In this document: positions 5,712-19,823 of the stretch, in pieces
How the letters are laid out: every line of letters begins with the position of its first letter
Position numbering within the stretch: the stretch's first letter is position 1
Assembly: GCA_015489315.1 (NCBI GenBank)
Contig: WFZZ01000057.1
Span: 1 to 39,802, forward strand
Direction: 5' to 3'
DNA: 39,802 bases
Origin: Deltaproteobacteria bacterium
GTDB taxonomy: Bacteria; Desulfobacterota; Dissulfuribacteria; Dissulfuribacterales; QOAL01
Made by a program: the position numbers and the translations under genes
The notes under the pieces: model-generated
What the model was told of the DNA's origin: nothing
Databases searched by the model: none
The model's input: only the letters and a program-made list of their open reading frames with translations

Positions 5712-8537
5712 TTATTTTACCTGAAGGAGAGATAAAAATAGCTCATCTGCTGCCTTTATAAGCTTTGCTGCAGCCGTATAGGCATGCTGGAATTTTAATA
5801 GGTCAGAAAGCTCTTCATCGAGGGACACACCGGATATGTTTTCCCTCCTGGCAAAAAGGTCTCTTACAGCCCCCTTCATGAAATCATGGTCAAGTTCTAC
5901 GGAACGAGTATTTATTCCTATTTCACCCACCAGACCGTGATATGAATCGCTTATGGTTGCGTCACCAAGGTCAGATATAGGCTCAGTGTTCAAATTTCTT
6001 ATTGCAATGGCATTTTCATTGTTTGCTGGGGAAAGTTCTCCTGCCGGAGGTATAGAAAGGCCCAGGTAATTAAGAAGATTGGAATCATCATTTATAAATG
6101 AAAAATATGCAGCATCTCCAGCAGCAAAGATCTGGAGCTTATTATTTTTGATTACTGCCCTGAGGTAGTCTGTATTGTTTATGGCATCCCTTATATCTTC
6201 CAGAGAGTCATTATCAGGATCAATATTTATTGTCAAGTCACTTATTGGCTGGCCGTTACTGTCATAGGGTCGAATTATGATGTTTCCAGAAACGACATCT
6301 AGATTATCTCTTTTGGCATCATATGTTTTAACAGGCTCAAAGGTTCTATCTACCCTTAAGGATGCTTCAAAACTTTGGCCTAAAAAGTCGTTTGTTAAGT
6401 TTCCCAAAAATTTAAGAAAATTAGTAGGTGGTGAATTGGCTGGGTCTTCTTCAATAGAGACTTGATAGCTTTCGTTTTCAGCTTGAATTTTAATGAGACC
6501 ATCTTCTATTGTTGCCTTGATTCCTTCCAGAGAATTAATTTCATCTAAGATATCATTAATAGAGGTTTGAGCCCTGTTAATATTTATGGTTTTTAATATT
6601 GGGTTGCCATCTCTATCGTTAACAGTAAGGCCTGAACTATCTTTTAGGCTTACAATTAGGTTTCCATCATAAATTTTTTCACCAAATTTTCTTTTGGGTT
6701 CCATGACATCATAAGTGCTAGTGATAGAATCGACCTTTCCTGTTCCAACCTTGGCTGCTGCTATCAGTCTGGGATCATTAATTAAGTCAGGATTTAGGGT
6801 GATGTCGTTGGCAGTGGTTCCCGTAAAGAAACTGTTAAGTCCAAGGGCCATAAGGACATTGGAGGTATCATCGGAAAAGGCAAAGCCCTCTACAATTTTG
6901 CCATTATTTGGAGTACCATCAACACCAATTACCAGGGTCTTGCCATTTATTACCGAAGCTGTAAGCCCGTCAATATTACCTATCTGGCTTGCAACGGAGA
7001 TCAGGTTGGTATTTGAATCGACATTTATTGTTATCGGATCATTAATTCCAGGAGTTGAAGTATCTGTATCAATAACATTCCCGTCCTTGTCATAAAGCCA
7101 AATCTTGAAAGAGCCCTCTTTGACATCCCCTGAAAATTCAAGACCAGAGGATTTGCTAATCAGAGGTTTATCAGGATTTAAGACTTCATTAAAACTTGTA
7201 ACCTCTTGAAGAGGAATGAGACCCACTCCCTGTGCGTGTTGAGCATTTACGGTTTTTATTAGCTCTTTTGCAATTAAATTTAACTTTTCCGTAAAAGAAA
7301 GAGGATAGTTGTTGTCAAATTTCCCAAGTTTTAGACCGATAATATCCCCATTTATCCCATCAATTTGAAAACTTATTGGATAGGTACCTGGATCGATATC
7401 CTTAATTTTAATTCTTCCATCATCAGTTGTTGTAATTTGAACTTTATTACCAAATGCATTGGCGACGAAATTGGCAAAGTCCCTTATGGTGGATGAAGCA
7501 TCCCCGTTAAATGTATCGGAAATGGCATTACCATCCTGGTCTATCCCTGAAAAACTAATGGTGAAGTTTCCATTTACAATTACGCCATCGATATCTGAGA
7601 AGAGATCATCCATGTGTATGGCCTCTCCTCCATTTGACGTATTAACAATGGAATTTGTGAGTTCCGTTGGGTCCTTTGGTTTTAACTTTCTTTTGATATC
7701 AAGCCAGCCTCCAAGCTCACCGCTGGTGATATCCTTGGTGGTTAACTCAAAGGTTTGACCATTTGATCCAAACCAGGTGACCTTGTTATCCAAAAGACCC
7801 AATTCCCAGGCCTTGTCATCTTCTACCAATGGGCTTCCCTGTCCAATCAAAATGGTATAAGAGCCCCTATCGGTTTCAAAGTATTTAATATTGGTCAATT
7901 GTGAAAGTTCTTTCACTAGCTCATCACGCTGGTCTCTCAAGTCATTGGCTGAGTGATGGCTTGCTTCAGCAGATACTATCTGAACATTTAATTCTGCTAT
8001 TTGCTTTGCCAACCTGTTGATGTCGTCAATATTGCTCTGAATATTGAGATCAATATCTCTAGAGAGTTTCATAAGACTTTGATATTTGTCCTTTAAGGAT
8101 TGAGCTAAAAGACTTGCCCGTTGAAGAAGAGTCCTTCTCTCAGTCATTCCCTCCGCATTATTGGCCAAATCATCCCAACCCTGCCAGAAATCGGCCAGCA
8201 GATTGTTTAAGCCATTTTCATCAACTTCATTCATTAACGATTCAATCGTCTTAAGACCTGAGAGTCTTGTTTCAAGACCGCTCAAATCAGAGGTTTTGGC
8301 GAAAAGGGACATGGTGATAAATCGGTCATATGCCCTTTTAATTTCGGTTGCGTCAACTCCATTACCAATGGGACCTATAAAAGTTGGAGTAGGTGGTTTG
8401 GCGGTAAGAGTTACCTTTTGTTTGGAATAACCTTCTGTATTTACATTGGAGATATTGTGGCCGATGGTTTGAAGGTTGGTCTGATGGGCCAAAAGCCCCA
8501 CCTTTGCTATATTTAACAGGCTGGTTAATCCACTCAT
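5712..8537 (-). CDS. flgK: Flagellar hook-associated protein FlgK, unusually long
   Basis: A 941-residue FlgK (HAP1); most family members are about 450-650 residues. The N-terminal D0/D1 region (LLNIAKVGLLAHQTNLQTIGHNISNVNTEGYSKQ, residues 8-40), the D1 coiled coil (130-215), the LSFTEKLNLIAKELIKTVNAQHAQG strand-helix (413-437) and the C-terminal helix (903-940, LDEELSDLLKFQHAYTAAAKL) are standard. The extra length comes from modules of about 80-95 residues at roughly 322-405, 474-568, 624-712 and 750-828. Each begins with a G-x-x-x-I/V strand and a D-x-x-G turn and ends in a hydrophobic LGL/LGN-type segment, resembling the 'flagellin hook IN' motif. The gene starts within flgN (ATGA overlap) with GAGGGGG ahead of the ATG, and is followed by flgL. 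Confidence 0.95.
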   Translation of the reverse strand: MSGLTSLLNIAKVGLLAHQTNLQTIGHNISNVNTEGYSKQKVTLTAKPPTPTFIGPIGNGVDATEIKRAYDRFITMSLFAKTSDLSGLETRLSGLKTIESLMNEVDENGLNNLLADFWQGWDDLANNAEGMTERRTLLQRASLLAQSLKDKYQSLMKLSRDIDLNIQSNIDDINRLAKQIAELNVQIVSAEASHHSANDLRDQRDELVKELSQLTNIKYFETDRGSYTILIGQGSPLVEDDKAWELGLLDNKVTWFGSNGQTFELTTKDITSGELGGWLDIKRKLKPKDPTELTNSIVNTSNGGEAIHMDDLFSDIDGVIVNGNFTISFSGIDQDGNAISDTFNGDASSTIRDFANFVANAFGNKVQITTTDDGRIKIKDIDPGTYPISFQIDGINGDIIGLKLGKFDNNYPLSFTEKLNLIAKELIKTVNAQHAQGVGLIPLQEVTSFNEVLNPDKPLISKSSGLEFSGDVKEGSFKIWLYDKDGNVIDTDTSTPGINDPITINVDSNTNLISVASQIGNIDGLTASVINGKTLVIGVDGTPNNGKIVEGFAFSDDTSNVLMALGLNSFFTGTTANDITLNPDLINDPRLIAAAKVGTGKVDSITSTYDVMEPKRKFGEKIYDGNLIVSLKDSSGLTVNDRDGNPILKTININRAQTSINDILDEINSLEGIKATIEDGLIKIQAENESYQVSIEEDPANSPPTNFLKFLGNLTNDFLGQSFEASLRVDRTFEPVKTYDAKRDNLDVVSGNIIIRPYDSNGQPISDLTINIDPDNDSLEDIRDAINNTDYLRAVIKNNKLQIFAAGDAAYFSFINDDSNLLNYLGLSIPPAGELSPANNENAIAIRNLNTEPISDLGDATISDSYHGLVGEIGINTRSVELDHDFMKGAVRDLFARRENISGVSLDEELSDLLKFQHAYTAAAKLIKAADELFLSLLQVK

Positions 8538-16127: not shown

Positions 16128-17333
16128 CTAATTAGAAAAATTTTGATATGTCTTTATTGGTAACCTCTCACATGGACCAATGCCTTGAAAGCATGTGTCA
16201 GCGCCTTTGATCCAGCCATAGCCGCTAAGATCGTTTTCCCCAACATCCATGTTAATGAATATCCAGCCATTAGTCGTTTTGAAAATGGCTTGAGCATACT
16301 CATTAGGCTTAAGAATACCTTTCAGGCCGTATTTTTCTCCAGGGCCTCTAAAGACCTTAGTTTTCATTCCGCCAATAAAACAAAATTTTGGTTGTGGTGG
16401 TTCAGTTTCTTGAATGTTTCTACAATCACCAGAAAGAAAAGCTGTTCCATTTAACGGTGTCCAGCGAAGCCTAAACGGTCCAACATTACAAGCCTGGGCA
16501 ACACCTGGATCAAAGCCAACCCAGGTTCCATTTTTTGAAAATGAAAGCACTTCAACCTTTTCAGCCGGATTTAAGGTGCCAAATTTTTCACTTTTATATG
16601 AAGGATAGAAAAAGACAGGTGTTTCCTTTAAGGGGATCAAAAGACAGGTTTTGTGTGCATCTTCTTCAGAATCATATTGTTCTCCCATAAATCCAACATA
16701 ATATATACGGCTTTTAAATTCCCACCCAAATCCATAGACCTTAAGAGTTTTTATAATATTTGGAGCAATTTTTAATCCTAAAAGATCAGGGGATTGCCAT
16801 GTGAAAGTAGCAGTGATGGGTTTTTGGCTAAAATGTTTTTTGTCAGGAGTCCCCTTACAATTGTTGTAAAATCCATGATACCATCTGTGCTTATTCCCTT
16901 TTTTATTAAGATAGGTAATGGAAATTTGTAAGGCTCCTTCTGGAAACCACCTTGGGTTCCAGTTGGCAATATTTCCACCCCTTTCATAAAGAATTTCTCC
17001 CTTAATTTTGACATAAAGGTGCCTTAGATTTGAGACTTTAATGTTTAAGGGAAATACAATACCTGCCGCACCTCCGTCATTTCCTCCTTGTATGCGTTTT
17101 AATTCAATTATCTTACCCTCTTCACCATCGATTATGTTAACGCTATTTCGTCCATGGACTAAGGAGCCTGGCTGGAGCCATAAGTTCCAGCATCTTCTAG
17201 ATGTGATAAGGTTTTTCCCTAATATTTCCGCGGCATAATAAGAGGCATCCTCTAGTTCTCCCTTAACTGCTATGGGTTTATAAAAAAGAGGGCTTAAAAG
17301 GACAAAAAGTATCCAAAGTCTCTTACGTTTCAT
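16128..17333 (-). CDS. Secreted protein of unknown function with tandem SH3-like segments
   Basis: A 401-residue protein that I cannot assign to a named family. Residues 1-25 form a signal peptide. Residues about 40-225 look like a beta-sandwich (alternating strands, many Trp and Tyr, LRHLYVKIKGEILYERGG, GALQISITYLN), in the manner of carbohydrate- or ligand-binding folds. Two SH3-like segments follow at about 238-300 and 325-380: each has an FGTL/LKGI turn, an A-or-V-rich strand and an NGTWVGF or NGWIFINM strand ending in a W. Eight or so cysteines suggest disulfides in the periplasm. It precedes the fliK-like gene by 35 bases on the same strand, but a flagellar role is not shown. Confidence 0.7.
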   Translation of the reverse strand: MKRKRLWILFVLLSPLFYKPIAVKGELEDASYYAAEILGKNLITSRRCWNLWLQPGSLVHGRNSVNIIDGEEGKIIELKRIQGGNDGGAAGIVFPLNIKVSNLRHLYVKIKGEILYERGGNIANWNPRWFPEGALQISITYLNKKGNKHRWYHGFYNNCKGTPDKKHFSQKPITATFTWQSPDLLGLKIAPNIIKTLKVYGFGWEFKSRIYYVGFMGEQYDSEEDAHKTCLLIPLKETPVFFYPSYKSEKFGTLNPAEKVEVLSFSKNGTWVGFDPGVAQACNVGPFRLRWTPLNGTAFLSGDCRNIQETEPPQPKFCFIGGMKTKVFRGPGEKYGLKGILKPNEYAQAIFKTTNGWIFINMDVGENDLSGYGWIKGADTCFQGIGPCERLPIKTYQNFSN

Positions 17334-17456
17334 TTTTTATCCCCCTTTATCTTTATAATTTAATTTCTGATTATAGCTAAATAGCCTCCTTTTTCCATTT
17401 AATAAAGGAATGTCCAAAATTTTTAGATTTTTTAGATAAAAAAGCTCTTTTTTCTC

Positions 17457-17485
17457 TTGACAATAAAAATCTATTGATCTAATAT
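17457..17485 (+). promoter_or_regulatory. Sigma-70-type promoter for the DVU0772-like gene
   Basis: A perfect TTGACA at 17457-17462 is followed, after 17 bases, by TAATAT at 17480-17485 (four of six matches to TATAAT). The predicted start is near 17492, giving a leader of about 45 bases that contains the stem-loop at 17499-17517. It is one of the best -35 boxes in the window. Confidence 0.65.
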
Positions 17486-17498
17486 TTAACTAACTAAA

Positions 17499-17517
17499 AA
17501 AGCCCCCTAGGGGCTTT
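17499..17517 (+). promoter_or_regulatory. 5' leader stem-loop ahead of the DVU0772-like gene
   Basis: AAAGCCCC at 17499-17506 pairs perfectly with GGGGCTTT at 17510-17517 around a three-base loop. On the plus strand it would sit about seven bases from the predicted RNA 5' end and about nine bases before the GGGAGG ribosome-binding site. It may protect the mRNA 5' end. Read on the minus strand the stem is followed by six T's, so it could instead be a terminator for leftward transcripts, although no minus-strand gene ends next to it. Confidence 0.5.
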
Positions 17518-17536
17518 ATGAAAATGGGAGGCCCTT

Positions 17537-17917
17537 ATGCAGTTTTTGGATCTTCAAAAATTAAGGCAGAGAAGAGATATAGTTAATCGGATTGATTGGA
17601 ATATGACTCCAGAAAAGGCAGTAGATATGTATCTTGAGTGGGGTGCAGGATGGACTAGGGGTAATGATTTTGTTAGAGGTGAAGGCGATGAGTCCATTTA
17701 TTTTGTTTTATATGAATGGGAGACACCTCCTCAAGTCACCCTATTAAGAAGAAATTCAAAAGAAGTAGAAGAGCTTGCCAAGATTCCAATAGATAAAAAG
17801 TTTTATATAAAGACCATAGAAGAAGGTGGTAAAAAGGCTGGCGTAGGAGTGTATGCCCCAACAAAGGAGTTAAAAAAGTGGTTGTCTGAGGTGCTATCAG
17901 GCCCTCCAGTAGAATAG
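17537..17917 (+). CDS. Conserved small protein, DVU0772-like
   Basis: A 126-residue cytoplasmic-looking protein without signal or membrane segments. The N-terminal half has KLRQRRDIVNRIDWNMTPEKAVDMYLEWGAGW, and the C-terminal half LLRRNSKEVEELAKIPI and YAPTKELKKWL. From memory this resembles the family named after DVU0772, found mainly in sulfate-reducing deltaproteobacteria and of unknown function; I could not check this. ATG 17537 has GGGAGG five bases upstream. The gene is a single transcription unit with a strong promoter, a leader hairpin and a near-ideal terminator, which suggests high expression. No function is proposed. Confidence 0.8.
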   Translation: MQFLDLQKLRQRRDIVNRIDWNMTPEKAVDMYLEWGAGWTRGNDFVRGEGDESIYFVLYEWETPPQVTLLRRNSKEVEELAKIPIDKKFYIKTIEEGGKKAGVGVYAPTKELKKWLSEVLSGPPVE

Positions 17918-17962
17918 ACTAACTGACCCCTCCTTTCTTGTTGTTATTTCCTTCCTCCTCTC

Positions 17963-17998
17963 TGGCCGCCTGGTAAATCCAGGCGGCCATTATTTTTC
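17963..17998 (+). terminator. Rho-independent terminator after the DVU0772-like gene
   Basis: An 11-base perfect stem (TGGCCGCCTGG at 17963-17973 with CCAGGCGGCCA at 17979-17989) closes a five-base loop TAAAT and is followed by TTATTTTT. The GC-rich stem stands out from the AT-rich surroundings. It lies 46 bases after the stop codon and closes the transcription unit. Confidence 0.9.
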
Positions 17999-18497: not shown

Positions 18498-19781
18498 TTA
18501 GATTTTGATTTTCCTTGATACAAATATGGTTCCAAAAACAGGATTTCCTGCCTCTTTTCTAAGAACCAGGTCTTTTTCTGAAAGGATAGACCCTCCCTTT
18601 TCTTTAAGTTTTTCTCTTACATAGTCCTTATTATGAGCGAATCTTCCAGTTCTTTGAAGCCTAAAGTCACTATTGCCAGGTAACTTTTCAACAGAAAATC
18701 CAAAAATTGAATTAGGCTTAAGGATTTTGTAAACCTTTTCAAAGACTCTAGATAGATCGCCAAAATAACAAAGGCAGTCAGAGCTATAGATGAGGTCAAA
18801 TGAAAGGTCATTTTCCCATTCATCAAGTATATCTGCCTCTATCAGCTTATCATAAAGCCCCTTTTCTTTTGCTATGCCAAGCATTTTGGGGCTACAGTCT
18901 ATCCCAACAAGATGTATTGCAAAGGGCCGATAGAGCTCTGCTCCAAGGCCTGTGCCACAGCCAAGATCAAGTATATCCATATCCTTTCTTAAAAAGGGTT
19001 TTAATCCATCAAATAGGTGCCTTGGTGTATTGTATTCAAGATCCTTTAGAAGTTTTTTTTCAAAGACATGTGCCCAGTCATCAAAGGTCTTTTTTACATA
19101 TTCCTTAGGTGCCCTGTCGGTTAAATTTTGTTCCATGCAATTTAAAAGGAATTTTGCCGTGGGCTCCTGAGGAGCCCTTTTAAGGACCCAGCTAAGTTCC
19201 TTTTTCGCCCCTTTAAAATCCCCGTACCTAAAAAGAAGGACTCCAAGATTGAAGTGGGCAGAATAATAATCATTATCCAACTCAATAGCCTTTAAAAGGG
19301 CCTTTTTTGCCTTATGCAACTCATCCAGTTCCTCATAAATCACTGCAAGATTGTTAAATGCCTTTGCATAGCCAGGCGAAAGCTCGCACACCCTTTTAAA
19401 ACAGGAAAGGGCCTTTTTATAATCACCTTCTTCCTTATAAATAAGCCCCAGATTATTCCATGCATTAACAAATCCTTCATCAAGTTTTAGAATACGTTCA
19501 TAGATTTTTTTCGCCGCCTTAAACTCCCCTAAAGATTGTTTAACCATTGCCAGGTTATAAAGGGCCGGAAGGTAGTCTTTTTGAATCCTTAAGCACCTTG
19601 AAAGATATTTTTCTGCCTCAAGGAAGTTTTTTCTCTGAAGCAAAATGGCAGAAATTGCATTCAGTATCTGAAAATTTTCAGGATCAAGCTCAAGACATTT
19701 CTTGAAATGCCTTTCAGCCCCTTCTAAGTCTCCCCTCTGTTGACAGATTAGGGCCATTTTTATTCTCTTTTGAATATCCAT
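18498..19781 (-). CDS. TPR-repeat protein fused to SAM-dependent methyltransferase
   Basis: A 427-residue protein in two parts. Residues about 5-215 form six tetratricopeptide repeats (for example AWNNLGLIYKEEGDYKKALSCF). Residues about 230-425 form a class I methyltransferase with motif I LDLGCGTG (271-278), the acidic GIDCS of motif II (about 293-297) and a FDLIYSSDCLCYFGDL motif IV-like strand. The TPR part probably binds a protein or complex; the methyl acceptor is unknown. I chose ATG 19781 over TTG 19805; neither has a clear ribosome-binding site and ATG 19757 is also possible. It is flanked by genes on the opposite strand and stands alone. Confidence 0.88.
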   Translation of the reverse strand: MDIQKRIKMALICQQRGDLEGAERHFKKCLELDPENFQILNAISAILLQRKNFLEAEKYLSRCLRIQKDYLPALYNLAMVKQSLGEFKAAKKIYERILKLDEGFVNAWNNLGLIYKEEGDYKKALSCFKRVCELSPGYAKAFNNLAVIYEELDELHKAKKALLKAIELDNDYYSAHFNLGVLLFRYGDFKGAKKELSWVLKRAPQEPTAKFLLNCMEQNLTDRAPKEYVKKTFDDWAHVFEKKLLKDLEYNTPRHLFDGLKPFLRKDMDILDLGCGTGLGAELYRPFAIHLVGIDCSPKMLGIAKEKGLYDKLIEADILDEWENDLSFDLIYSSDCLCYFGDLSRVFEKVYKILKPNSIFGFSVEKLPGNSDFRLQRTGRFAHNKDYVREKLKEKGGSILSEKDLVLRKEAGNPVFGTIFVSRKIKI

Positions 19782-19823
19782 AATAGGTTCATAAAAAGAA
19801 TTCAAAATTTGCCGTTTAGCTTC

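Follow-up and report, generated by a model that had tools for sequence, protein, structure and literature searches.

A DVU0772-family gene with a hairpin in its predicted mRNA leader, and operator-like palindromes upstream of some of its relatives

Transcription unit and its surroundings

Our analysis of the window, i.e., the whole stretch of 39,802 nucleotides from a Deltaproteobacteria bacterium (contig WFZZ01000057.1), revealed a compact single-gene unit on the plus strand at 17457-17989, which comprises a promoter, a leader hairpin, a ribosome-binding site (RBS), the open reading frame (ORF) of a DVU0772-family protein and a terminator (Table 1). The -35 box TTGACA (17457-17462) and the -10 box TAATAT (17480-17485) are separated by 17 nt. 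Transcription is predicted to start at about 17492, seven nt past the -10 box, and, counted from this predicted start, seven unpaired A-rich nt precede the hairpin. The hairpin arms, AAAGCCCC and GGGGCTTT, enclose the loop CTA and form eight pairs, all of them perfect; eight nt separate the end of the hairpin from the Shine-Dalgarno sequence. The terminator stem consists of 11 perfect pairs and is followed by TTATTTTT. The parts named in the original prediction, that is, the TTGACA box, an 8-base stem-loop about seven nt from the predicted 5' end, a strong RBS and a terminator with an 11-base stem, are all present, and this observation is confirmed part by part. No Rfam family reached its gathering score anywhere across the window.

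Table 1. Features of the DVU0772 unit and the genes downstream of it (window coordinates)
Feature	Coordinates	Strand	Basis or remark
Sigma-70-type promoter, TTGACA-17-TAATAT	17457-17485	+	Motif scan and recurrence in the GTDB family
Predicted mRNA leader, 45 nt	17492-17536	+	+1 placed from the -10 box
GC-rich hairpin, 8 bp, 3-nt loop	17499-17517		Sequence and folding
Shine-Dalgarno sequence, GGGAGG	17526-17531	+	5 nt ahead of ATG 17537
DVU0772-family protein, 126 aa	17537-17917	+	NF045682 match, 102.5 bits
Intrinsic terminator, 11-bp stem	17963-17989	+	Scan; same sequence in the sister species
Downstream ORF, 147 aa	18042-18485	+	No Pfam match; hydrophobic stretches by eye
TPR-methyltransferase gene	18498-19805	-	Context

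A promoter scan of the 5-kb region performed at the chance level (11 promoters found, 11.9 expected); the promoter is credible because it recurs in relatives, not because of the scan. Within the window's GTDB family, the box TTGAC[A/T] occupies the equivalent position in 18 of 18 loci (all loci of that family with a match, L017, L019 and L029 having been added by eye). It is followed 17 nt downstream (16 nt in one locus) by a -10-like hexamer, the scan having been run with a slight preference for the 17-nt spacing and without a shuffled control. Codon adaptation to five ATP-synthase genes was 0.746, which ranks the gene second after atpD (0.769) among the 36 scored ORFs of the window, the five reference genes being counted within the 36 and part of the window ORFs being unscored. 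Given the promoter, the RBS and the codon bias, it is plausible that the gene is well expressed. The proposal of a high-expression unit thus stands as far as the sigma-70 promoter, the strong RBS, the terminator and the codon bias are concerned; its other element, a conserved stabilizing leader hairpin, does not (see below).

The 147-aa ORF downstream adjoins the DVU0772 gene in L031-L040 too. The genes to the left of the promoter (16128-17333 and on), on the flagellar side, are divergent and lie on the minus strand. On this side, the window and its sister species are rearranged relative to L032, L033, L036 and L037, in which the left neighbor is a co-directional plus-strand cysteine-rich ORF of 268 aa. 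In the 121 bp just upstream of the -35 box (17334-17454), 29 of 115 aligned sites differ between the window and the sister species, compared with 2 of 82 in the promoter and leader.

The DVU0772 family

The HMM search suggested in the original prediction places the protein in the DVU0772 family: the match to NCBIfam NF045682 exceeds the cut-off of 45 bits and covers 98 of the model's 100 positions. The gene was found in 38 of the 60 genomes searched, including the window's own and eight other genomes of the genus. Across the phylum, roughly one sampled genome in four has a member of the family (103 of 395 match the model at E 0.001, 98 of them over the cut-off). Pfam has no family for the protein, and a sequence profile search against the PDB gave nothing convincing (best E 0.23). 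An AlphaFold model built from a 34-sequence alignment has a mean pLDDT of 78.8, with residues 34-46 below 50; a structure search with it yielded no Foldseek match at E 0.001 or better, and the best VIA-align Z was 2.7; neither program gave a usable match. A missing fold match does not amount to a new fold. The protein alignment omits L049 because of a stop codon: this orthologue (6001-6375, the same as L021) has an in-frame TAA and is either a pseudogene or a sequencing error.

The literature searched contained no paper with DVU0772, and no function was found for the family. The main text of one fitness paper (PMC10102598) makes no mention of PerR, oxygen, peroxide or DVU077. The protein itself shows no noted difference from the rest of the family; it is the regulatory leader of the window gene that is unlike that of the genus members. 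By eye, 10 of 15 further loci, many of which were picked for long reading frames, have a similar C-terminal extension of about 150 aa after the DVU0772 domain (L101-L108, L110 and L111, all from other families). The one extended protein that was tested matches Lcl_C (DUF1566) with E 3.1e-15, a possible functional clue.

The leader hairpin

The hairpin was compared with chance at several scales. When the leader was shuffled with its dinucleotides preserved, 109 of 5000 versions contained a perfect stem of at least 8 bp. Folding of the leader minus the RBS gives -12.3 kcal/mol (z -3.0), a value equalled by one shuffle of 300; the fold is unremarkable if the stretch is extended over the RBS and the first codons (z -0.24, equalled by 77 of 200 shuffles). 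The window as a whole holds five perfect stems (at least 8 bp, at least four G+C per arm, loop 3-8), the DVU0772 unit accounting for two of them, versus 0 to 3 such stems in each of ten shuffles.

One might take the palindrome for the DNA operator of another repressor, as it is a perfect inverted repeat that directly follows the -10 box and occupies the slot in which relatives have operator-like palindromes. We consider this very improbable: AAAGCCCCNNNGGGGCTTT has no perfect match in the 2.4-Mb draft genome other than the window hairpin itself, and four of the five matches with two mismatches fall within long ORFs; the fifth (L153) lies between two co-directional ORFs.

The hairpin was expected to be kept ahead of orthologues, and this expectation failed: among nine species of the genus, the GC hairpin was found in two, the window's and its sister (L002/L031), whose DVU0772 proteins are 99% identical. 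At about the same position, L003, L004, L005 and L009 carry an AT-rich palindrome, TGAGA-N5-TCTC. Among these four leaders, only that of L003 folds clearly better than its own shuffles (z -3.3; L005 -1.7, L004 -0.5, L009 -0.2). No notable leader fold was seen in L006, L007 and L008 (z 0.2, 0.1 and 0.9). A UGGAA/UUCCA pairing noticed by eye in L006 was dropped, as it lies mostly outside the predicted leader.

The original interpretation was that the hairpin is a 5'-terminal stabilizer of the ompA type and that the protein is abundant. Stem-loops at the 5' end stabilize some bacterial mRNAs, according to PMC3997798 and PMC7509114, and the former describes 5' hairpins as impeding RppH, which in B. 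subtilis requires at least two unpaired nt. As in the E. coli ompA and papA stabilizers, the predicted 5' end in the window is close to a stable stem-loop, which is followed by a strong RBS; the folding energy relative to shuffles and the high codon adaptation also agree with such a role. Protection of the ompA type tolerates fewer than seven unpaired 5' nt. The window differs from the E. coli examples in the approximately seven free A-rich nt predicted before the stem, which is above this rule, and in the lack of conservation across the genus, where the hairpin is common to one sister species only. Moreover, divergence from the sister in the promoter and leader (2 of 82 sites) is ordinary for the locus, where the gene differs at 6 of 381 sites and the 3' spacer at 1 of 124, and shows no sign of selection on the hairpin. 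We therefore regard the stabilizer reading as doubtful.

A somewhat better, although still unlikely, alternative is that the hairpin is an intrinsic terminator for leftward transcription, which would stop antisense read-through from the TPR-methyltransferase gene into the divergent genes on the left. Read on the minus strand, the window hairpin has the GC stem and U-tract of intrinsic terminators, i.e., a stem-loop (about -11.3 kcal/mol) followed by TTTTTTAG. It is also the only leftward terminator-like site found between the TPR-methyltransferase gene and the promoter, the scan having given none between the 3' end of that gene and 17517. The left neighbor is leftward in the window and the sister and co-directional in the four hairpin-less loci with the cysteine-rich ORF, so that the hairpin coincides with something to protect. 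However, L034 has a leftward left neighbor yet no GC hairpin, and the comparison of the leftward terminator rests on two sequences.

The single substitution between these two sequences (window C17503 to T in the sister) bears on the choice of strand. In the plus-strand RNA of the sister it keeps a G.U pair, leaving the stem intact (-9.6 kcal/mol); in the minus-strand RNA it creates a C.A mismatch and lowers the stability to -6.4 kcal/mol, versus about -11.3 to -11.8 in the window, and the scan missed the site although the sister has the same gene order. Thus, leftward termination, which had been named in advance as the alternative that would undermine the prediction, fits the sequence of the window and is weakened by the damaged minus-strand stem of the sister; in addition, the hairpin, unlike a typical terminator, sits between a plus-strand promoter and its gene. 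A purely structural role in the leader would require nothing beyond the observed sequence. Action in the plus-strand leader RNA appears slightly ahead, and only slightly, because a single substitution makes up the evidence on the strand and the divergence of the leader is ordinary.

PerR/Fur-type palindromes upstream of DVU0772-family genes

Rodionov (2004; PMC545781) predicted PerR sites before the genes 206199 of D. vulgaris and 395549 of D. desulfuricans, the function of which is given as '?'. A matrix was built from the five Desulfovibrio sites of Table 7 of that paper, two sites of unknown genes being omitted. Of the 126 regions upstream of DVU0772 genes, 19, distributed over eight GTDB families, scored at least 10 bits with this matrix, some genomes contributing two loci and related species not being independent. 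The controls gave far fewer sites: on average 1.15 (maximum 3) in 20 shuffles, 0.85 (maximum 2) in random windows from the same loci, and 1.38 (maximum 4) with column-permuted matrices. The 126 regions are those of 128 loci without L201, in which no domain was found, and L100, a duplicate of L026; seven family matches are not among the loci (five below the cut-off, one at a contig end and one a 72-base fragment). The remaining 107 regions had no PerR-type site at the 10-bit threshold. Palindromes of the same 19-bp type as in the Desulfovibrio PerR regulon (PMC545781) thus occur at part of the DVU0772-family loci, among them L008 of the window's genus (13.6 bits, in the leader slot), whereas the leader of the window gene has none, its best score being -3.4.

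The genes apsAB are DVU0846-0847, and later work is reported to place DVU0772 in the D. vulgaris PerR regulon. By locus numbering, VIMSS 206199 is probably DVU0772, apsAB being 206272 in PMC545781. The exact 206199 site is absent from the 395 phylum genomes; when one mismatch was allowed, 4 of the 247 genomes taken from one family matched, and in the DNA examined no match adjoined a DVU0772 gene. Neither pattern search confirmed the identity. One of the matches with one mismatch (L211) precedes, by eye, a perR-like gene.

The AT-rich leader palindromes of the genus relatives look like operators of the Fur superfamily. The palindrome of L003, TTGAGAATTTTTCTCAA, and its kin occupy the position of the window hairpin, and four species retain the TGAGA...TCTC core, inside which there is no compensatory pair change. 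In the same GTDB family, perR-rbr operons have TGATAATTATTATCA or its variants between the -10 box and the RBS, and a fur-like gene has sites of the TTAAGAAT type, all picked by eye. Matrices made from the perR sites only and from the fur sites only each identified one of the 18 upstream stretches of the family at the 10-bit threshold. A combined matrix of nine perR and fur sites, likewise picked by eye and tried after these two, gave 3 of 18 at 10 bits or more, versus a mean of 0.12 (maximum 1) in 100 shuffles; the matches were in the leader slot of L003 and L005 and over the -35 box of L021. The genus matrices revealed no comparable operator in the leader of the window or the sister: with the combined matrix they scored -6.7 and -7.2, respectively, while true sites scored 15 to 20; the perR-only matrix gave -7.0 and -6.0, and the fur-only matrix values slightly above zero (1.6 and 1.2).

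A nearly identical palindrome, TTGAGAATCTTTTTCAA, is located 29 nt ahead of a metal-uptake gene of the ZnuA family (PF01297, E 1.4e-50), followed by an ORF similar to ABC-transporter ATPases, both in the window genome G000 (L065, 727-743) and in the sister (L066, 898-914). It is a candidate Fur/Zur-type site of the genus, and its place before a metal-uptake gene, as expected of such a site, supports the Fur-superfamily reading. A regulator of this superfamily likely acts in the window's genus. It may be PerR, Fur or Zur, as the L003 palindrome is closer to the fur-type than to the perR sites and the ZnuA neighbor suggests metal control. The pattern TTGAGAATNNTTCTCAA was considered as a site of a wide regulon and rejected, since control patterns matched about as often in G000, G001 and G005. 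With one mismatch allowed, it has few occurrences in nine genomes, six of them from the genus; the reversed-pattern control was empty in G002, and the match of this type in L070 falls within a coding region.

The explanation that we consider best, if still tentatively, is that the gene was ancestrally under PerR/Fur-type control and that its operator slot is now occupied by the GC-rich hairpin in the lineage to which the window and its sister belong. The DVU0772-family protein would be produced from a single-gene unit with the conserved sigma-70 promoter. For some members of the family, a Fur-superfamily repressor probably binds the palindrome located within or close to the promoter or leader; this would be a PerR-type peroxide sensor in Desulfovibrionaceae-like lineages and PerR, Fur or Zur in the window's genus. 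In the window and the sister, where the GC-rich 8-bp stem-loop would have taken the slot, there is no matching palindrome, and hence control of the promoter through that site has probably been lost. The stem-loop most likely forms in the plus-strand leader RNA, where it would pair the C- and G-runs with each other, away from the RBS, and its effect on mRNA decay would be at most modest. It is a more speculative, and rather improbable, extension that by exchanging operator for hairpin a repressed stress gene became constitutively transcribed and tuned at the mRNA level.

If the operator was indeed replaced, the window lineage would provide a natural example of a gene's departure from a PerR/Fur-type circuit. 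The first interpretation of the locus is, overall, partly supported, and the most informative point about the gene is the tie of its family to that circuit. The motif statistics connect part of the DVU0772 family with the stress circuit of the PerR/Fur type in anaerobes and thereby offer a lead on its role; from regulon association only, we infer that DVU0772 may function in oxygen/peroxide or metal stress.

Two further observations concern the regulators and sites. The sister genome contains a cluster (L118) of perR, a small HTH-like ORF, rubrerythrin and a peroxiredoxin-like gene; a search of the window draft genome found neither perR nor the full rubrerythrin part of this cluster, owing to either loss or incomplete assembly. 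Finally, upstream of the DVU0772 orthologues in L059, L060, L062 and L063 there are different palindromes, of the type TTGACCCAGGTCAA.
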